Origin: Candidatus Altimarinota bacterium
Lineage (GTDB): Bacteria; Patescibacteriota; Gracilibacteria; Absconditabacterales; Absconditicoccaceae
NCBI GenBank assembly: GCA_027062165.1
Contig: JAMOTU010000086.1
Span: 1 to 8,597, forward strand
Length of the DNA stretch: 8,597 bases
Reading direction: 5' to 3'
This document shows, one piece after another, positions 1-8,597 of this stretch. The first letter of the stretch is position 1; every line of letters starts with the position of its first letter. The position numbers were made by a program, and so were the translations under genes. The notes below the pieces were generated by a model that was not told the DNA's origin, made no database searches, and was given only the letters and a program-made list of their open reading frames with translations.

Positions 1-509
1 TTAGCATTTAAAGAAAATTCAAACATATCATCAACTCTTTTATAATAAGGAATATTCATTTTCTTTATAAAAGGAAGTTCCTCAAATTGATCTATAATTC
101 ATCCTGAGGAATAAACAATTGATAGGTCATTTACTTTTCAAACAAGATTAAGTTGCTCCATATTTATAACAAAATTGTTTATTTCAAATTTTCAATATGA
201 TATTTTATCAACTTTTTGAATAATATCATACATTTTTCTCATTATATATGACCATTTGGTAGGTTGTATTTGTTCATAAACATCTTTTAAAAGTAAATAC
301 TTTTTAATTTTTTCATCTTCTTTCAAAAGAGCTATTTGTTTCTCAACATCATTTATTTGTGTATCTAAATTTTCTAACTTTTTATTTAAAATTATAATTT
401 TATAATACAAAAAAGCTGTATATATCCCTCGCAATATAATGAATAAAATAGATAAAAACATAATATATTTCCATTTTTCTTTGATAATTTTTCTATAAAA
501 TTTTTTCAT
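1..509 (-). CDS. PilN-like type IV pilus inner-membrane assembly protein (3' end outside window)
   Basis: The first 169 residues are visible and the gene runs off the left edge. A basic N-terminus is followed by one hydrophobic segment (about residues 15-40), a charged coiled-coil-like stretch (about 41-75), and a compact domain containing LVGKVNDLS near 122-130 and FEFSL near 163-167. Membrane helix, coiled coil and ferredoxin-like fold is the layout of PilN/GspL-C fimbrial assembly proteins, which link the cytoplasmic PilM ring to PilO in the inner membrane. The usual N-terminal PilM-binding motif (INLLP-like) is not evident, so PilO or another pilus protein remains possible. TGA glycines occur at residues 106, 124 and 137; without recoding the protein would stop after 105 residues. 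The ATG at 507-509 was chosen because a good promoter lies 35 bp upstream. The family call is from pattern only. Confidence 0.5.
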
Positions 510-544
510 TTTTATTTTAGCTAAACATTAAATTAGTTTCCAAA

Positions 545-572
545 ATTATATCCAAAATTTTATTTTTGTCAA
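545..572 (-). promoter_or_regulatory. Sigma70-type promoter for the PilN-like gene
   Basis: On the minus strand TTGACA (567-572) is followed after 16 bp by TATAAT (545-550), both perfect consensus hexamers. The -35 box lies inside the last codons of the exonuclease III gene and includes one of its TGA glycine codons. The -10 box ends 35 bp before the ATG at 509, which suits a short leader. A 10-bp palindrome, tttagctaaa (516-525), lies between the -10 box and the start. AT-rich DNA yields TATAAT by chance, but a matching -35 at proper spacing makes this the best promoter in the window. Confidence 0.65.
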
Positions 573-1423
573 ATATCTAAAATTACTCCTACAGGAGCAT
601 GATCAGATCATAAAATATGGTCGTGTATAAAAGCATCTATCAGTTTATTTTTTAATTTTGGAGAAATCAAACAATAATCTATTCTCCATCAACTATTATT
701 CTTTCTTGCATTTGTTCTCATAGACCACCAAGAATATTGAATTTTCTCAGGATACAAAAATCTAAAACTATCTATAAATCAAGCTTTTAAATAATTGGTC
801 ATTCACTGCCTTTCTTCTTTTGTATATCAATGTTTTCATTCGTTTGCCTTAGGATATTTTAAGTCAATAGGTTGATGAGCAACATTCATATCTCAACATA
901 TTACAATAGGTTTTTGTTTGTCTAAATATTTTAAATATTCTAATAAAGCTTTATCCCAAAATTGTCTAAAATTTAATCTAGATAAATCGACTTTTGCATT
1001 GGGTACATATACACATCAAAAATAAATGTCTCACAAATCAACAATAGATAATCTTCACTCTTTATCTTCCAAAATTACTTTCTTTACTTCTTCAAAATCT
1101 ACTTTATTTTTAAAGGAGGTTTCATATATATCACGAATAAATTCAGAAGGCATTTTTGAAAATCATTTTATAGTCTGTTTAAAAGGAATCTTTGAAAATA
1201 TAGCAGTTCCTGAATATCATCATCTTTCGGCAGGATTAAAAAAAATATATTTATATCCTAAATCATTAATCAATTTTATAAAACCTTTATCGATTTGATT
1301 CTCTCTTGCTTTTATTTCTTGTAATCAAATAACATCGGGTTTATATTTTTTTAAATAATCTAGTAAATACCCCTTTTTAATTATTGACCTTAAACCATTT
1401 ACATTCCGAGAAGCAAGTATCAT
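560..1423 (-). CDS. xthA: Exodeoxyribonuclease III / AP endonuclease
   Basis: This 287-residue protein belongs to the ExoIII/APE1 metal-dependent family, which cuts 5' of abasic sites and degrades duplex DNA 3'-5' in base excision repair. Active-site motifs appear in order: N7 in RNVNGLR, E36 in GLQE, Y139 in VYVPNA, D178 and N180 in CGDMN, D249 in WRIDY, and H275 in GSDHAP. Fifteen glycines are TGA codons, including those in CGDMN, SGWR and GSDH, against six GGN codons. It is slightly longer than the 268-residue E. coli protein, mainly through residues about 85-130. The ATG gives the expected short lead-in to the N7 motif. There is no clear Shine-Dalgarno sequence. It follows the 465-aa gene by 25 bp and is probably co-transcribed with it. 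Confidence 0.95.
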
Positions 1424-1448
1424 TTATAAACAATTAACAAAATAAATT

Positions 1449-2846
1449 TTACCAACCATTTAAATTTTTTTCTATTTCAAATCATTTTTCACTTCCGTAA
1501 AATTCTTTAAACAATTTATGTAAAATATTTTTAGGATTATATTGAGAATTATTTTTTATCATTTCCATTTGTTTAATCCGTTCATAATTTTTTTCTATTA
1601 TTTGTTTCATTAATTTTTTTACTTTATCTTCATCTATATGATAATGATGTTTTTTTCCTGATCATTTCATTTTATTTTTGTTATCTAGCTTTCATTGTTT
1701 ATTCTTTCATTTTTCTGAGTTATTATTAAAATTTTTATTATTTCAATTACTTCAATTGTTTTCATTTTTTCAATTTTTGTTATTATCTTTTCAATTAGAT
1801 TTTTCTTTATTTTCTTTATTTTCTTTTCTTCATTGTCAGTCATTTTTTGTATATTTCTTAGGATCTGATAAATACTCCTTTAATTTTTCAAATCATTTTG
1901 ACAATTGTTTATTATTTTTATTAAACTTTTTACTTAGTTTATAAGAATTTTCACATAACATTTTTAAATGAGACTCATTACCATACAACAGTATAAAATA
2001 CAATTTTCAATATTGATCATCATATGCACTTAATCATGATAAAATGCTATTTAGTCCATTGTCTATTCCTACAAACATACTTTTATCTGACAAACAACTA
2101 TCTACATCTTTTATTTTAGCATAAAAGATTTTAATTAAATTTTTTTTATAAGTATTTAGTAATATTTTTATATTTGAAAGATTAACATAAGAACGTGATA
2201 AAGATTCTAAAAGTCTTTTTAAACAATCTTTTAGAAATGGATCCTTTTCAGTTAAAAGTTTATTTTTTAATAAATTTATCTGTTTAATTAGAGTATTTTC
2301 TATATTTTTTATTTTTTCTTCTACATCAGAAAATTTTTCAAATTCTTGTTTAAATCTATCTACACAATATTTTAAACCAAATAAATAGACTAAATTTTGA
2401 GCTTTTATCTTATTGGTATATATTCTATCATATTGCCATCAAGTAGCGTATTTTAGTGCTTTATTATAAAAAAATACACTTCCTGAAAGTGTAGTATAAA
2501 GGTTTTCTAAATTTAAATTATTGTCTCAAGAATGTTTTATATAATATTGCAATCAACTTAAAAAATTTCTATTTCATAGAGAAAAAAAGTAGTATAAACT
2601 ATTAGTATTGTTTAACTCATCAGATAATCGCCATTGTCAATGATATATTTTTTTATTTAACAAAAAATTTTTCACCTCTGGACTAGAAGCATAAATATTT
2701 TTTTCTTTATTTAAATAAAAAAAATCAAGTAAAATATAGCCAAATTTAAATATTATTAATCAAAACAAAAAAACAAAAAAAGATAAAATTACAAACCATC
2801 AGATAATTTTTATTTTTAAGTATCTTTTATATAATTTAATATCCAT
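1449..2846 (-). CDS. Membrane-anchored protein with Asn/Lys/Gly-rich region, function unknown
   Basis: I do not recognise this 465-residue protein. The basic N-terminus leads into a long hydrophobic region (about residues 13-44), enough for one or two membrane helices. A helical soluble part (about 50-330) includes ALKYATGWQYD near 130-140, a charged coiled-coil-like stretch near 165-215, and Cys at 161, 208, 251 and 298. Then comes a low-complexity tract (about 335-398) of Asn, Lys, Gly and Glu ending in KKHHYH, and a charged helical tail (403-465). Twenty or so in-frame TGA codons must be read as Gly. The layout of N-terminal anchor, helical repeat-like domain and low-complexity tail loosely recalls BatC-like proteins, but I see no diagnostic motif. 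The gene lies 20 bp after the small basic gene and 25 bp before exonuclease III. Confidence 0.8.
1653..1844 (-). repeat. Low-complexity Asn/Lys/Gly coding tract
   Basis: About 64 codons of the 465-aa gene encode runs such as KENKENKEK, NGKDNNKNG and NNGSNGNNK. The DNA is almost entirely A-rich on the coding strand, with TGA supplying nearly every glycine. It is not a perfect tandem repeat. Such tracts usually form flexible linkers, and replication slippage could change its length between strains. Confidence 0.7.
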
Positions 2847-2866
2847 TTTTGAAATTTTAAACTATT

Positions 2867-3172
2867 TTAAAAATTACGCTGTTTCCTTAACCATTTTCTA
2901 TATCATCGTCATTGAGGATTATAAACCCATTCTATTTCACTAGAATTGGGTTTTCTAATTATTCTATATCAATCAGGATCTTCTCTCCGTCATGTTTTAT
3001 CATTAATTCGTTTTCAACTACGATAAAACCGTTCATAAGTATTACCTTTAGGATTAGTAAATTGTCTTTTCCCTATAATTTCTTCCTTATGAGATTTAGA
3101 TAGCAATGCTCTTTGCTTTTGTAATTGTCTTTTTTTCTTTAAAATTCACATTTTATTTGTTCTAGCTCCCAT
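2867..3172 (-). CDS. Small highly basic protein downstream of dnaX, function unknown
   Basis: This 101-residue protein has 29 Lys/Arg and only 9 Asp/Glu, with basic clusters at both ends (KKKR near 12-15, RKWLRKQR near 92-99). The middle is rich in polar and aromatic residues (TYERFYRSGKR near 45-55). A role in binding RNA or DNA is suggested by composition alone; no family motif is recognised. Its ATG lies inside the end of dnaX, 11 bp before the dnaX TAG ends, in a different frame, so translational coupling is likely. Many bacteria carry ybaB and recR after dnaX; this protein resembles neither. Six TGA codons are read as Gly. A later ATG at residue 8 is possible, but the overlap start is typical of coupled genes. 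Confidence 0.7.
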
Positions 3173-4622
3173 TTTCTTGTAATTTTCTTTTTAAAAAGTC
3201 TTCTTTGGACATATACTGTATATGAAGACTTATATCATTTTTTCAAAGGATATCTCTTAAAAGATTTTCCAAATATTTTAAATTACTCTCTTGAGTAAGT
3301 AGTTTGTATTGTACCTTGTTTATAATAATCATTTCAATATTTTTTCAATCATATCATTCTATTGATGCATACTTTTTGAGAATAGCTCTTATACTTATTT
3401 TATCACATTTAGCTATAAGTTGAGACATCAGATTCATAAGATTAATATTATCTTCTTTAGGTTCTAAACTATCAGATTCTTCAGATTTAACTTCAACATT
3501 TTTGTTTTCATTTTGTGAATGTTCATCTAGTTTTTCAGATTTTTTTTCTTCTATATTGTTTTCTTTTTCGAGGCTATCTTCCTTTTTACTTTCTATTCTT
3601 TCATTTTGATCGTTTTTTATAAATTCTCAGATTTCTACTTTAAAAGCTAAAAGTTTATTTGGAAAACTTTTAAGATTTAGAAAAATCTTTTTAAATAAAT
3701 TAGAAAGTTTTGAATAAAATTGTATATCCTCTAAGAAATTAAAATCTATATATTTTAATACTTGTTTAGCAAAAACTCATAAATCTACTCATCATAACTC
3801 CAACTTAGTAAGGAAATCAAAGACATTTTTTAAAGTTTCTTTATTTCAAGTTTGGTATCGCTTTTTTAAAAGGGATACAAATTCTTTTATTTGAGCTTCT
3901 GGTGCTATTCATAAAAATTTTACTACATTTTCTTCATTAACTTCTCATAAAACACTAACTTGTTCCAAATATTTTACCGCATCCCTTAGGGCTCATTCTG
4001 AAACATAAGCAATCAAATACAAAGCTTTTTCTGTATATGGAATATTTTCTTTTTCAGCAATATATTTTAAACGAGAAACTATTTCATTTTCTGTTAACTT
4101 TCTAAAATTGAATACTTGACAACGAGAAACAATTGTATCAGGTACTTTATTTATTTCAGTAGTAGCGAGTATAAACATTAAATATTCAGGTGGTTCTTCC
4201 ATAATTTTTAAAAGAGCATTGAATGCCGCTTTTGAAAGCATATGAACTTCATCGATAATATACACTTTCTTTCTAAGTTGAGTAGGAGGATAAGGAGCTT
4301 TATCAATTATTTCTTCTCTAATGTTATCTACTTGAGTATGAGAGGCAGCATCTATTTCAACAAAATCTATTGTTTGAGATTTATTTATTGCTACACAATT
4401 TTCACATTGATTACAAGGATTTCAATTTTTAGGGTTTAAACAATTAACCGCTTTTGCTAAAATTCTAGCAGTTGTAGTTTTTCAAGTTCATCTAGGTCAA
4501 AAGAATAAATAATTATGCATAGTCTGTCAAAGTTCTATTTGTTTTTTTAAAATATCTATTATGTGTCTTTGTCAAGTAACATCATCAAAAGTTTGTGGAC
4601 GATATTTAAGATATAAGGACAT
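3162..4622 (-). CDS. dnaX: DNA polymerase III clamp-loader subunit gamma/tau
   Basis: The 486-residue DnaX is an AAA+ ATPase that, with delta and delta', loads the sliding clamp during replication. The N-terminal SLYLKYRPQTFDDV opening is typical. Further motifs are Walker A GPRGTGKT (42-49), zinc-binding Cys61, 70, 73 and 76, Walker B with IIDEVHMLS (122-130), the sensor 1/SRC region (about 153-168, ATTE...VSRC), and the sensor 2 region SEGALRDA (208-215). Domain III follows, then an acidic, probably flexible linker (about 336-392), then a C-terminal domain (about 395-486) as in tau forms. Seventeen of 18 glycines are TGA, including all three in the P-loop; the exception is in the overlap with the next gene. 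It ends with TAG, the only non-TAA stop seen. The phosphoribosyltransferase gene ends 46 bp upstream. Confidence 0.97.
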
Positions 4623-4649
4623 AGTATCTAAATATTAAATATAGTAAAA

Positions 4650-4655
4650 ATTATA
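4650..4655 (-). promoter_or_regulatory. Possible -10 box before dnaX
   Basis: A perfect TATAAT on the minus strand lies 27 bp before the dnaX ATG, in the 46-bp gap after the phosphoribosyltransferase gene. No good -35 box is seen at 16-18 bp. The box sits in the loop of a short inverted repeat (agtaaa 4643-4648, tttact 4658-4663). In such AT-rich DNA this may be chance. Confidence 0.35.
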
Positions 4656-4668
4656 ACTTTACTGAAAC

Positions 4669-5346
4669 TTATATATCACTTATCATTTCTTCTGTTAAAC
4701 TACCAACTATTGCCAATCAATCTATTTTTAGATTTTTATATTTTTTTTTCAATTTATTTGCTATAGCACACATACTTGCACCAGTATTTACCATATCATC
4801 TATTATCAAAATTTTAGTAATATTATCAAAAATGTCTCAAATTTCAAATTTTTCGTTAGCTACTCTAAATTTTTCTTTTAGAATTCTAATATTTTTAATT
4901 TCATTTCATTCCTTAACTCTAAAAGAAGGAATTATTTTTAATCAATTTTTTTCTAAATATTCTTTTAAATAGTCTAACACATTACATTTTCTATCAACAG
5001 ACCAAGGGACAAAAACCACAGCATCATATCTTTTAGCAAAATCTAAGACTTTATCTTTAATAAAATCAAAAATTAATTTACAATATTTTTCAGATCAAGT
5101 TTTAGCTATCTGAAAATATTTAACAATATTAGTTTTAGGATATCAATATTCCAGGCTATAAGGATACAAAAAATAAATTTTATCTATTTCATAAAATCAT
5201 AAAGGTTGTTTTTCTAAAATTCTATTTCAATACTTTTCTATAAATTTATCAAAAATAGACAAATCTACTTGTTTTTCTTCTTCCTCTAACAAATCATTTA
5301 AACAGATAAGTTTTCAATTTTTAATTTTATAAAGAGGATTTATCAT
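4669..5346 (-). CDS. ComF-like phosphoribosyltransferase
   Basis: The 225-residue protein has the PRPP-binding signature of type I phosphoribosyltransferases, ILIIDDMVNTGAS (179-191), preceded by strand-like segments such as AVVFVPWS (109-116). These enzymes transfer a ribose-phosphate group between PRPP and a base. Orphan members of this kind are often annotated ComF, a protein needed for DNA uptake in some bacteria. The first 100 residues are unlike a typical purine-salvage enzyme, and the CxxC zinc finger common at the ComF N-terminus is missing; only scattered Cys (15, 89, 121, 193) occur. The substrate cannot be told from the sequence. Nine glycines are TGA, while the glycine in the PRPP loop is GGT. 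The gene stands between the KaiC-like ATPase (56-bp gap) and dnaX (46-bp gap). Confidence 0.75.
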
Positions 5347-5371
5347 GAACTATGTTCTATATCCGTAAAAG

Positions 5372-5409
5372 AAAAAAATAAATATTATAATTTAAACTAT
5401 ATTTATTTT
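5372..5409 (-). terminator. A/U-only hairpin with U-run after the KaiC-like gene
   Basis: An 11-bp perfect inverted repeat (5375-5385 and 5399-5409, loop 13 nt) is followed in the transcript by a U-rich run broken by one C. The stop codon of the KaiC-like gene lies in the first arm. The stem contains no G-C pair, so it would be weak, but its position at a gene end with a U-tract fits an intrinsic terminator in a very AT-rich genome. Confidence 0.4.
5384..5389 (-). promoter_or_regulatory. Possible -10 box before the phosphoribosyltransferase gene
   Basis: A perfect TATAAT on the minus strand lies 37 bp before the ATG at 5346, overlapping the loop and inner arm of the proposed terminator hairpin. 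The region 16-18 bp upstream does not resemble TTGACA, so support is limited to the -10 match and its location in one of the few larger gaps. Confidence 0.35.
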
Positions 5410-6296
5410 CCTATAGGTTCTCCTATTTCAACCAATCAAGTATCAGTAATATAAAGATAATGAATTTTGGTATCATGACCAGACATTCTACATCAATCTA
5501 TTCTGAATAGTCTAACAATATCTCATATTTGTTTTTTATAAAGTCTTGCTTGATAAGAAGTCATTATAACTTCTTTAGCTAATACCATTGTTCAATCTAC
5601 TATATGACCTACTGCAAAACCTCAAGCAGCTTCAGCACTTAGTTCTTCGTGACCACTCCTTTTTTGGGAAATAAACCAAGCAGTTTGATACCATTTTTTC
5701 ATAAAATTAAATAATCTTCTTACAATAGCCCTTGCCATCATTTCTTTGTTTTCGTAAAGTCAAGTTATTGAGTCTATAACAGTATAACTTATTTTGTAAG
5801 TTTTTATAGCATAAGCTAAAGTAGCTAAAAGGTCAGGTATCTCCCTAAGTTTTGAATGAGAAGCAGCATCTATTAAAATAATATTATCTTCTAATTCTTC
5901 AAATCTGTATCACATAGCGGCTGCTCTCTGCTTTAATCAACTAACAACAAAAACTGCAGGAGACTCTACAGTAATAAAAGCTACTTTTTCTCATCTTGCT
6001 GCTTGGGCTATAGCAAATTGTTCAGCCATTAAAGATTTTCAAGTATCAGGAGCTCAAGTGATATTAAATACAGAATATCTAGGAATTCATCATAGAGGTT
6101 TTTTTACTATTTTACCATTTTCATCAATCTCTACAGTAAAAAATAATTCATCTAATCACTTTACACCAGTTGGAACACCTTCTATTTTAGGTGCTTTTTT
6201 GATAGCTTCAGATCATACCAAAATTCATTCTTTTATAACTTCTGGTTTATGGTGTTCTTCCTGGTAAAAGTTTTGATTTAAATTTTTTCAATCCAT
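5403..6296 (-). CDS. KaiC/RadA-like RecA-superfamily ATPase
   Basis: The 297-residue protein has one RecA-type ATPase domain of the KaiC/RAD55 group (COG0467). Motifs are PTGVKGLDELF (42-52), Walker A GAPDTGKS (81-88), ITVESP (108-113), the Walker B strand TVIDSITG (172-179), and the strongly family-like stretches MMARAIVRRLFNFMKKW (186-202) and ELSAEAAGG (218-226). It resembles the single-domain KaiC-like proteins of archaea and some thermophilic bacteria more than RadA/Sms: there is no zinc finger and no Lon-like domain. The biological role of this group is unknown; a circadian role should not be assumed. Seventeen glycines are TGA and nine GGN. The ATG gives a short polar N-terminal extension and stands 19 bp after the 132-aa gene, so the two are probably co-transcribed. 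No Shine-Dalgarno sequence is visible. Confidence 0.88.
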
Positions 6297-6315
6297 TCTA
6301 TTTTTAATTTAGAAA

Positions 6316-6714
6316 TTAAATCTTTATTCTTTCTCATTCGTATTCTAATTTATCCAACATTTCTTCAACAGCTGGATCTTCAAATATCCAAATTTCTACA
6401 TTTTCAAAAATATCACTACTTTCTAATACAGAAGGACTTTGAATAAATGCTACTACCTTATCATTTACTTTTTCTATTAAATAATTTAACTTTCTATTTT
6501 CTCACTCCACCACCGTAAAATATATACCATCTGAGTATCTTTCTATATTAAAATGATATTCTCCAGGATATTCTATTTTAAAATAATCAATTTTTTCCGG
6601 AATATCTTTTCATCTGACTTTTTTCAAATTTATATATTGTTTCTCATCTGCTCCTCAAATTTTGATAATATCTTCAATTATTATATTGTCTTGTTTTTTC
6701 TCTACTTTTATCAT
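6316..6714 (-). CDS. Uncharacterised 132-aa acidic protein before the KaiC-like gene
   Basis: No known family is recognised. The protein is soluble, acidic and without Cys. Its first half looks strand-rich (IEYPGEYHF near 47-55, GIYFTVVEG near 63-71), followed by KVVAFIQSP (86-94) and VEIWIFEDP (106-114), then a charged helical C-terminus. Four TGA codons are read as Gly (positions 20, 35, 71, 127); under the standard code it would be cut to fragments and missed. The ATG at 6712-6714 is used; an in-frame TTG directly upstream is an alternative. The 27-bp gap after the pilin gene and 19-bp gap before the ATPase gene suggest a shared transcript and possibly a partner role for the ATPase, which is inference from position only. 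Confidence 0.75.
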
Positions 6715-6741
6715 CAAAATTTTATTTAATATATCTAAATT

Positions 6742-7185
6742 TTATTTGAAAAAATTAGGATTAATCATATGAAGAATTACTCAAGAAAGTCCCAAAAGAG
6801 CTATTCAAATAGCAACTTTTAAAATAAGATCTTTTCATTTTCAATAAAGACTTTGGTCAGCTCAAGAAGATGCAATCATAACTCATCAAACAACAATCAT
6901 TAAAAAACCAACAGCTATTATTAAAGAAACTACTATTTTAGTAAGAGCTCCCATAAGTCTAGGGAAAGCACTTTCTGCATTAACAGAAGTTTGATTATTT
7001 TCAGCATCATATCCCTTGTCTTCATCTCACATACAAATTTTATTTCCTATTCAAGGTATGCTGGTATTTAGTTTTACACAATTTTCATTATTAGATGAAG
7101 TAGTATTTCCACCTTCAGCAGCTAAAGTCCAAGAAAATACAAAAGAGAAAAACATAAAAAAAATTAATATAACTTTTTTTAACAT
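6742..7185 (-). CDS. Small two-helix pilin-like protein (T4SS_pilin type)
   Basis: The 147-residue protein has a signal peptide (KK at 3-4, hydrophobic 5-22, likely cleavage after ALAA-like TLAA), a polar extracytoplasmic part with two Cys (36 and 51) that could form a disulfide, and two membrane helices (about 83-104 and 120-139) joined by a short Gly/Ser/Lys loop (SSGADQSLYGKGKD). Two helices with GG in the first and a basic-charged loop match the VirB2/TrbC-like pilins common in Patescibacteria and listed as T4SS_pilin. These are thought to form surface filaments or belong to type IV secretion. No other secretion gene is in the window, so the role is open. Nine glycines are TGA, including the GG pair at 100-101. 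It lies 17 bp after the yqeY-like gene. Confidence 0.75.
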
Positions 7186-7202
7186 AGTATTAAGATAAAG
7201 TT

Positions 7203-7646
7203 TTAAATATAAGATTGTATTACTTGATTTAATAATTTACCATCTACTTGTGGTCAATATTGTTTCATAATTGCTCATATCAATTTTCATCTTTCTTTTC
7301 TTAAATCTGAAATATTCAATTCTTTAATTTTTTCTTCTACAATTTTCTTTAACTGATCTTCAGACAGCATCTCTGGTAAATATTGCTTCAAAATTTCAAT
7401 TTTTTTCCTTTCGATTTCTGCCTCTTCTACTTTACCAGATTTTTCTAAAAAAGATATACTTTCTTGTCTAGATTTAATTTCTTTTTTTATAATTTTTATA
7501 ATATCTTCATCAGAAGGTTGGTGTCATAAATCAATTTGCTTATTTTTTATCTGAGAAATTAAATAATTTAAAATATCTTTTTTAACTGTATCCTTTGCTT
7601 TAAAAGCCTGTTTATAATCTTGTTTTATTTGATCTAACAAACTCAT
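7203..7646 (-). CDS. yqeY: GatB/YqeY domain protein
   Basis: The 147-residue protein matches the YqeY family in length and layout: an N-terminal helical half with DIKQDYKQAFKAKD-like opening (here LLDQIKQDYKQAFKAKD), IKKEIKSRQESI near 52-64, and EIEILKQYLPEMLSEDQL-like centre (KKIEILKQYLP at 81-91). The C-terminal half holds the KLIGAIMKQYGPQVDG motif (121-136). The family shares this tail with GatB of the glutamyl-tRNA(Gln) amidotransferase, where it contacts tRNA; stand-alone YqeY has no settled function. Glycines 41, 120, 124 and 131 are TGA, 71 and 136 GGT. A weak AAGG lies upstream of the ATG, and the prsW remnant ends 19 bp before it. Confidence 0.9.
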
Positions 7647-7664
7647 CTTTAAAGTAACCTTAAA

Positions 7665-7670
7665 ATTATA
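7665..7670 (-). promoter_or_regulatory. Possible -10 box before yqeY
   Basis: TATAAT on the minus strand overlaps the stop codon of the prsW remnant and ends 18 bp before the yqeY ATG, which would give a leader of only about 10 nt. No -35 match is seen. It would matter if the upstream gene is dead and its original promoter was lost with the IS insertion. Confidence 0.3.
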
Positions 7671-8523
7671 AATATTCCAGTTTATATATTAATGAAACAA
7701 AAAAATAAATCAAAATAAAATAAACTAATATCAAATTAATTAACCAATTTTTGTAATCTAATAAGTTAGAAAAAAATGATATAATAGGCATCAAAACTAT
7801 CATTACTAAAATGACAAAATATATTTTGTGATTTCTAAAAATCCTGTATATTATAGATAATAACCAAAAAGTAAAAACTAAATAGAAAATAAAGTAATCT
7901 ATTGAAAAATCTTTTAAACTTAACATCGACAAAGAAAAATTGTAATATATATGTAAAAAGGTCCCTAAAACAAAAGTTTCCACTACTATTTCAACTGGAG
8001 AATGTCAATAAAAACTTTCTTTTTTTCCCTTTAATAGATAATCAATAGTTACATCTAATACAAAAATTTTTAGAAAAAATTGTAAAATAGTTTTAATAGA
8101 TCTCTTACTATTGTAGTATATAAATTTTATCAAACTAGGAAAATCAGTTAATTTAGTAAATTTTCTTTTATAAAGCTTAAAAACATTAGGAAAATAACGA
8201 TGTATAAAAAAACTCTTGTAAATCAAATATCAGTAAATCATTCATAAAAGCATATGTATTAAACCTCAAACAATGAATATTCTATAAATCAACAATTCTA
8301 TATCTAAACCTGACTGAATATATACAAAGTTTTCATAAATTGAAAAGGTAAGTCAAACTAATCATCAAAATACAGTCCAAAATTTTCAAGAATATCTAGT
8401 TAAATCTTTAAAATTTATTAAAATTGAATATATAACTAAAAATTTAGCAATTTCCTCTAATATTGGTCAAATAATAATACTCTGTAAAATTTCAAGTGAA
8501 GTGCACCACTTTAAGAAATAAGA
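7666..8523 (-). pseudogene. PrsW-family membrane protease, 5' end lost at an IS element
   Basis: Reading TGA as Gly gives 285 open codons down to the TAA at 7666-7668, but the frame has no ATG before codon 91 and is closed by TAA at 8524-8526. Counting from codon 1 at 8523, PrsW-family (PF13367) motifs appear in order: ILEEIAK (21-27, the EExxK metal or catalytic site), GLTFSIYEN (57-65), the conserved His in LIHMLLG (88-94), and TFLHIYYNF further on, with several membrane helices. PrsW proteases cut membrane proteins such as anti-sigma factors. Family members normally have about 60-70 residues with two helices before EExxK; here only about 20 codons precede it, and those before about 8482 belong to the IS end. 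The catalytic core is intact, so recent inactivation or an unusual non-ATG start are both possible. The missing 5' part may lie beyond the window across the IS. Confidence 0.7.
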
Positions 8524-8597
8524 TTAATTCTAGTATTAAAGAACACTTCATAAGGAGTTAAAAAATTGTGTATTTTTCTAGGCATTAAGTTTATTAT
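8482..8597 (-). mobile_element. End of an IS30-type insertion sequence
   Basis: The stretch holds the 3' end of a transposase gene and then about 30 bp of noncoding DNA with short inverted repeats (aagtg 8494-8498 against cactt 8507-8511, around gtgcac). Positioning a terminal repeat right after the transposase stop, containing a GTGCACTT-like core, fits IS30-family ends as I know them. The exact outer boundary (about 8482) is estimated from where prsW-like coding begins; the other end and target duplication are outside the window. Confidence 0.55.
8511..8597 (-). CDS. IS30-family transposase, C-terminal 28 residues only
   Basis: The frame entering from the right edge encodes 28 residues and a TAA. 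It contains PRKIHNFLTPYEVFFN, matching the NxRPRKxLxxxTPxEVFF pattern near the C-terminus of IS30-family DDE transposases, which normally end within a dozen or so residues of it, as here. No TGA codon occurs in this piece, so it does not show which code the element was adapted to. The catalytic domain lies outside the window, so activity cannot be judged. Confidence 0.65.
   Translation of the reverse strand: MINLMPRKIHNFLTPYEVFFNTRINLIS

Follow-up and report, generated by a model that had tools for sequence, protein, structure and literature searches.

The contig JAMOTU010000086.1 of Candidatus Altimarinota bacterium (GenBank assembly GCA_027062165.1), a stretch of 8,597 nucleotides that is called the window throughout, is very probably translated with a genetic code in which UGA specifies glycine and both CGA and CGG specify tryptophan, with CGU, CGC, AGA, and AGG kept for arginine and TGG kept for tryptophan. 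This stretch forms contig C86 of a draft genome that comprises 242 contigs and 1,080,583 bases and is 76% complete. A preliminary description, made from the letters of the window alone, had read UGA as glycine throughout, reserved TGG for tryptophan, and named genetic code 25. The glycine assignment and the placement in the clade that reads UGA as glycine hold up. TGG does encode tryptophan, as in the SGWR motif of exonuclease III, but it is not the sole tryptophan codon, and code 25 is right for UGA but gives arginine at CGA and CGG, which encode tryptophan in this family.

UGA at glycine positions

Gene calling with table 25 resulted in 11 open frames, all on the minus strand (Table 1), and each of them holds in-frame TGA codons (3 to 20), in agreement with the earlier statement that TGA interrupts every gene. 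The 11 frames comprise 2,676 codons, among them 108 TGA, 47 GGN, 19 TGG, 5 CGA, and 4 CGG, and of the ten complete frames, nine are terminated by TAA and one by TAG. From base composition, the same number of random codons would contain approximately 161 TAA, 56 TAG, and 56 TGA. TGA is in excess of this expectation, and TAA and TAG are excluded, their absence inside the frames being a consequence of how the frames were called. If table 11 is used instead, no open frame of the window exceeds 105 amino acids, and the genes are shattered as had been predicted.

The identity of the residue at TGA was examined with 80 DnaX loci from genomes outside the clade, translated with the standard code, and with TGA in the query written as X. 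Nine of the 17 TGA columns of DnaX are covered by at least 40 of the 80 homologues, and these columns contain 549 Gly and 1 Trp among 663 residues (7 gaps excluded), the outcome of the comparison that the preliminary description had proposed. The three TGA codons noted earlier in the DnaX P-loop GPRGTGKT are residues 42, 45, and 47, and all 80 outside homologues have Gly there. Each of the 20 residues was then placed at TGA in turn and scored against a profile hidden Markov model (HMM). With a DnaX profile built from the same 80 homologues, Gly scored best (383.9 bits), followed by Ser (360.2 bits), with Trp at 348.8 bits; for the KaiC-like protein, scored with the Pfam model PF06745, Gly was again best (188.8 bits), followed by Asn (161.1 bits), with Trp at 134.6 bits. 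The remaining motifs of the preliminary description were also recovered, namely GAPDTGKS in the KaiC-like protein with two TGA codons and CGDMN, SGWR, and GSDH in exonuclease III with TGA at residues 177, 245, and 272. When all codons were compared with the 80 outside loci, a check that covers almost only DnaX, TGA fell at Gly in seven of seven conserved columns. AAG (two columns, Tyr and Arg) and TCC (one column, Ala) deviated in too few columns to interpret, the other codons were standard, and no conserved column was available for CGA or CGG.

A second alignment combined the window's exonuclease III with those of 29 other loci in its order (matches were found in 40 of 49 genomes) and with 18 genes from three sister families of the same class, f14, f22, and f24 (18 of 19 genomes matched). 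CGA and CGG, hereafter CGR, were masked as X, and columns were kept if 20 or more rows covered them and one residue made up 60% or more. As the rows are related by descent, no probability is claimed for the counts. In the Gly columns of the window's family, TGA occupies 186 and GGN 265 of 477 cells, and in the sister families TGA occupies 96 of 279. TGA and GGN exchange for one another among relatives in columns of both exonuclease III and gene 4, a small protein of the window.

Release factors and the candidate transfer RNA for UGA

Only one release-factor frame was found in the genome. It scores 450.2 bits with the release factor 1 (RF1) model, above the cut-off of 423.25, and 270.6 bits with the release factor 2 (RF2) model, below the cut-off of 370, and it holds 11 TGA codons itself. 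The profile search thus did not find RF2 in this 76% complete bin, as the preliminary description had anticipated. Among the 40 genomes of four families, the window's own (f1, 21 genomes), f14 (11), f22 (7), and f24 (1), none has RF2 above the cut-off. Across the class, 93 of 145 genomes do, and 12 genomes of other families likewise do not.

Two complete relatives (G071 and G042) encode a transfer RNA (tRNA) with the anticodon UCA that is 74 bases long, with G1:C72, C2:G71, G3:C70, and U73, features that make it glycine-type by the rule given in excerpts of Shulgina and Eddy 2021 (PMC8629427). A DNA search with this tRNA found a match in 42 of the 49 genomes of the order and in all 26 that are near-complete. 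An initial search pattern with the anticodon loop TTCAA was dropped, as its matches, spread over 40 of 49 genomes, looked like chance and a control gave a similar number; the true loop, taken from the tRNA model in the two complete relatives, is TTCAG. In the mechanism we propose, loss of RF2 would have ended the use of UGA as a stop codon, and glycine would be inserted at UGA by a glycine-type tRNA(UCA) such as that seen in relatives.

CGA and CGG at tryptophan positions

Exonuclease III of the window begins MILAS[CGG]NVNGLR. Its relatives in the PDB read SWNVNGLR or SWNVDGLR, with Trp at the CGG site in five of five among the alignments listed (58 matches), and the Pfam model PF03372 scores the protein at 112.9 bits with Trp at CGG and 104.7 bits with Arg (+8.2). 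In the 30 family genes, the column of this site contains TGG in 10, CGA in 17, CGG in 2, and CAA in 1. The same pattern extends to the five Trp columns of the family (150 cells), where TGG is found 82 times, CGA 48 times, and CGG 17 times, with 3 other codons and no Arg codon. Of the 328 cells in the family's eleven Arg columns, 304 are AGA, AGG, CGT, or CGC, and none is TGG.

Gene 4 provides three further sites. At codon 48, the 30 loci that include the window have TGG (14), CGA (12), or CGG (4); at codon 55, seven of the eight nearest relatives have TGG, CGA, or CGG; and at codon 89, the eight nearest have TGG or CGA, with mostly Gly codons further away. The Arg columns of gene 4 (4, 63, and 70) contain AGA, AGG, CGT, and CGC only. 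The window contains nine CGR codons, six of which are covered by evidence from codon columns, and four of these (xth codon 6 and gene 4 codons 48, 55, and 89) exchange directly with TGG.

Gene 4, exonuclease III, and an alpha-2-macroglobulin-like protein encoded elsewhere in the genome, a CGR test that reached 9 of 49 genomes, were pooled for a comparison of codons. The genome's own CGR codons (230 cells) face CGR 54 times, TGG 42 times, Tyr or Phe codons 16 times, Arg codons twice, and other codons 116 times. Its Arg codons (841 cells) face Arg codons 495 times, CGR 4 times, and TGG never, and its TGG codons (308 cells) face TGG 106 times, CGR 47 times, and Arg codons 9 times, with eight of these nine cells coming from gene 4. 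Pfam scores for other genes of the genome, as Trp minus Arg, were +2.3 bits for Mur_ligase_M, +0.8 for Transgly, and +0.7 for Transpeptidase, and equal for Mur_ligase_C; one further protein had no family match. The alpha-2-macroglobulin-like protein (L216:5281-10815) has 1,845 amino acids and 16 CGR codons, five of which lie within the 15 codons of residues 730-744, a segment that would read DYC-W-W-C-W-W-W with Trp at these positions.

Transfer RNAs for CGN codons and genome-wide codon usage

The genome encodes a tRNA(CCG) and a tRNA(UCG), both with A1:U72 and G73 and without A20; position 20 is U in the former and G in the latter by manual numbering of the D-loop. Among the tRNAs compared, the second-best match of tRNA(CCG) is the tRNA-Trp(CCA) of the same genome, with 73% identity. 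According to PMC8629427, as excerpted, a tryptophan acceptor has G73 and lacks A20, with A/G1:U72 as support, and by this rule both tRNAs are predicted to accept tryptophan. The genome's tRNA-Arg(GCG), by comparison, carries A20. The 18 tRNAs found in the incomplete bin include GCG but not ACG, and GCG was also found in G071 and G042. Charging of tRNA(CCG) and tRNA(UCG) with tryptophan would reassign CGR, and tRNA-Arg(GCG) would read CGU and CGC only, so that the CGN box would be cleanly split.

Codon usage was calculated for the window and ten unmasked stretches of the same genome, using frames of at least 100 amino acids (27,871 codons). Twenty stretches had been taken; eight of them were entirely N (L211-L215, L218, L221, and L224), and two more were excluded as contaminants with the standard code. 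For glycine, TGA (975) is more frequent than GGN (758). TGG occurs 274 times, CGA 41 times, and CGG 40 times, or 98.3, 14.7, and 14.4 per 10,000 codons, values that refer to all frames and not to Pfam domains only and so compare only loosely with those of PMC8629427. The arginine codons are AGA (736), AGG (124), CGT (28), and CGC (13). The two stretches set aside, on contigs C20 (L217) and C220 (L229) of the draft genome, have two and no in-frame TGA codons, respectively, and no CGA or CGG. They encode Wzz, Wzy, glycosyltransferases, and the flagellar protein FliD, and probably represent contamination, perhaps by a host or neighbouring organism.

Alternative readings of the code

Several observations weigh against the proposed code. 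The other eight TGA columns of DnaX are thinly covered and mixed, and not all are rich in Gly. A tRNA-Gly(UCA), which the preliminary description expected in the genome, was not found by tRNA scan or DNA search in the window's own bin, which is 76% complete; this is probably due to a gap, since tRNAs for Ala, Asn, Asp, Gln, Glu, Thr, Tyr, and Val are likewise missing from the 18 that the bin contains. The charging of the tRNAs is deduced from features of their sequences. One CGG lies in an Arg column of exonuclease III within the family (locus L278), and three Pfam domains of the alpha-2-macroglobulin-like protein favour Arg at CGR by 0.4, 0.3, and 0.1 bits. In gene 4, codon 55 is Lys in the majority of distant relatives and the CGR at codon 62 faces Leu or Cys codons, and the CGR at codon 255 of dnaX faces an unconserved column.

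It is very improbable that UGA is the only reassigned codon and that CGA and CGG remain Arg, as in NCBI table 25. That table is the one listed by NCBI for the clade, and in the exonuclease III of the sister families CGR does occupy 19 of 187 Arg cells. Within the family of the window, however, CGR is found in 65 of 150 Trp cells versus 1 of 328 Arg cells, the Trp of SWNVNGLR is encoded by CGG, and the genome's CGR codons face TGG 42 times and Arg codons only twice. It is very improbable that CGG alone has moved to tryptophan along with UGA to glycine. A change limited to CGG exists in other bacteria (PMC8629427, in excerpt) and the cleanest site in the window is a CGG, but CGA outnumbers CGG in the Trp columns of the family (48 versus 17 of 150) and is absent from its Arg columns, near relatives have TGG opposite the CGA codons 55 and 89 of gene 4, and the tRNA(UCG), which is expected to read both codons, also appears to be tryptophan-type.

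Readings in which UGA is not glycine can be given next to no credence. Tryptophan, as in table 4 and Mycoplasma, would suit the low G+C content of the window (23.5%) and is the commonest meaning of a changed UGA in bacteria. Trp nevertheless falls far below Gly in both 20-residue tests, accounts for 1 of 663 residues at the TGA columns of DnaX, and is matched by no TGA in the 150 Trp cells of exonuclease III in the family. Just as poorly placed are pseudogenes, sequencing errors, and occasional readthrough, for instance with selenocysteine, for which the program ARAGORN does label the UCA tRNAs of relatives. The 11 frames contain 108 TGA codons, some in P-loops and active-site motifs, but neither TAA nor TAG; TGA exchanges with GGN in relatives; and the UCA tRNA is 74 bases long with a glycine-type acceptor stem. 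On the alignments, the 20-residue tests, and the features of this tRNA, we rejected UGA as a stop codon, as selenocysteine, as Trp, and as any other residue.

Sister families and a possible order of code changes

Like the window's family, the sister families have RF2 above the cut-off in none of 19 genomes and use TGA in Gly columns. Unlike it, they use CGR at Arg positions of exonuclease III, and of the 90 cells in their Trp columns 86 are TGG and none is CGR. The code suggests that these three families are probably Gracilibacteria/BD1-5 and that the window's lineage is probably Absconditabacteria (SR1). One f22 genome (G091) encodes a tRNA(UCG) with A73 and, by manual reading of the sequence, A20. 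One f14 genome (G034) encodes a tRNA(CCG) with A1:U72, G73, and an unusual D-loop (L384, G034:C8:28109-28182) next to an arginine-leaning tRNA(UCG) with A73, a pair that could be an intermediate of the CGG change.

These differences allow a tentative and somewhat doubtful scheme, in which the codon box was captured stepwise on top of an older stop-codon change, with CGG altered before CGA. UGA as glycine would be the earliest step, common to the four families; f22 would still read CGR as Arg and f14, as represented by G034, would stand in between; and in the window's family tRNA(CCG) and tRNA(UCG) would both have become tryptophan-type, leaving CGR, which fills 65 of the 147 exonuclease III Trp cells that hold TGG or CGR, nearly interchangeable with TGG. 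The exonuclease III of the window is nearer to the versions of the sister families than to those of its own (best identity 53%, clade support 100/99, long branch); lateral transfer and an old second copy are both possible.

Gene content of the window

Exonuclease III scores above the cut-off for TIGR00633 (256.8 bits) and TIGR00195 (240.1 bits) and also matches PF03372. Profile searches of Pfam and NCBIfam gave no match for genes 3 and 4. Gene 4 encodes a small basic protein with matches in 47 of the 49 genomes of the order, several of which have two copies. The family matched by the KaiC-domain ATPase, TIGR03878, has no known function.

Table 1. Open frames of the window, with motifs and codons discussed in the text
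Feature	Position	Strand	Remarks
Gene 1	3..509	-	Cut by window edge; 3 TGA, 1 CGA; no function assigned
Exonuclease III (xth)	560..1423	-	15 TGA taken as Gly, 1 CGG taken as Trp
Exonuclease III CGG codon, residue 6, Trp of SWNVNGLR motif	1406..1408	-	
Gene 3	1449..2846	-	465 amino acids; 20 TGA, 1 CGA, 1 CGG
Gene 4	2867..3172	-	101 amino acids; conserved in the order; 6 TGA, 2 CGA, 2 CGG
Gene 4 codon 89, CGA	2906..2908	-	From codon columns of relatives
Gene 4 codon 55, CGA	3008..3010	-	From codon columns of relatives
Gene 4 codon 48, CGG	3029..3031	-	TGG, CGA, or CGG only in relatives
dnaX, DNA polymerase III gamma/tau subunit	3162..4622	-	TIGR02397, 377.2 bits, above cut-off; 17 TGA, 1 CGA
DnaX P-loop GPRGTGKT, three TGA codons	4476..4499	-	TGA columns Gly in 80 of 80 homologues
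ComF-like phosphoribosyltransferase	4669..5346	-	Weak match, TIGR00201, 30.5 bits, below cut-off of 233.55; 9 TGA
KaiC-domain ATPase	5403..6296	-	TIGR03878 (thermo_KaiC_2), 444.3 bits, above cut-off of 232.2; 17 TGA
KaiC-like P-loop GAPDTGKS, two TGA codons	6033..6056	-	From sequence and translation
Gene 8	6316..6717	-	133 amino acids; 4 TGA; no NCBIfam match
Gene 9	6742..7185	-	Type IV pilin-like, PF18895, below cut-off; 9 TGA
YqeY-like protein	7203..7646	-	PF09424, 111.8 bits; 4 TGA
Gene 11	7666..8295	-	209 amino acids; 4 TGA; no NCBIfam match

Relation to published codes and implications

UGA as glycine was reported for Absconditabacteria (SR1) and Gracilibacteria (BD1-5) by Campbell 2013 and Rinke 2013, both as cited in excerpts of PMC8629427, and peptides with Gly at UGA have been shown for a BD1-5 bacterium (PMC4032931, in excerpt). 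The excerpts of PMC8629427 further describe Absconditabacteria in which CGA and CGG are Trp alongside UGA as Gly, with tRNA(GCG) replacing ACG, and Gracilibacteria in which CGG is Trp in some and Arg in others; excerpts of PMC13092985 state that Absconditabacterales read CGA and CGG as Trp. To the extent of these excerpts, both code changes are already in print for Absconditabacteria, and what is added here is how the window's family differs from its sisters and how far CGR is used. The organism resembles those assigned to table 25 in having UGA at Gly positions, no RF2 found, TGG as Trp, and a glycine-type tRNA(UCA) in relatives. It departs from them in that CGR as Arg does not fit its family and the UCA tRNA is missing from its own incomplete bin. 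With the Absconditabacteria of PMC8629427, again as excerpted, it shares CGA and CGG at Trp and almost never at Arg positions, G73 combined with the lack of A20 in tRNA(UCG) and tRNA(CCG), low G+C content, and arginine encoded mostly by AGA; a tRNA-Arg(GCG) is likewise present, and ACG was not found in the incomplete bin.

If CGR is tryptophan, table 25 alone, the usual remedy for such genomes, mistranslates this one, putting Arg for Trp at positions that include the first active-site motif of exonuclease III. The window's family and its sisters form a natural contrast in which the UGA change is common and the meaning of CGR differs, and the order of events, as well as the role of tRNA(UCG) in tying CGA to CGG, therefore becomes testable. 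Genes transferred horizontally from one group to the other would in part be incompatible with the code of the recipient.

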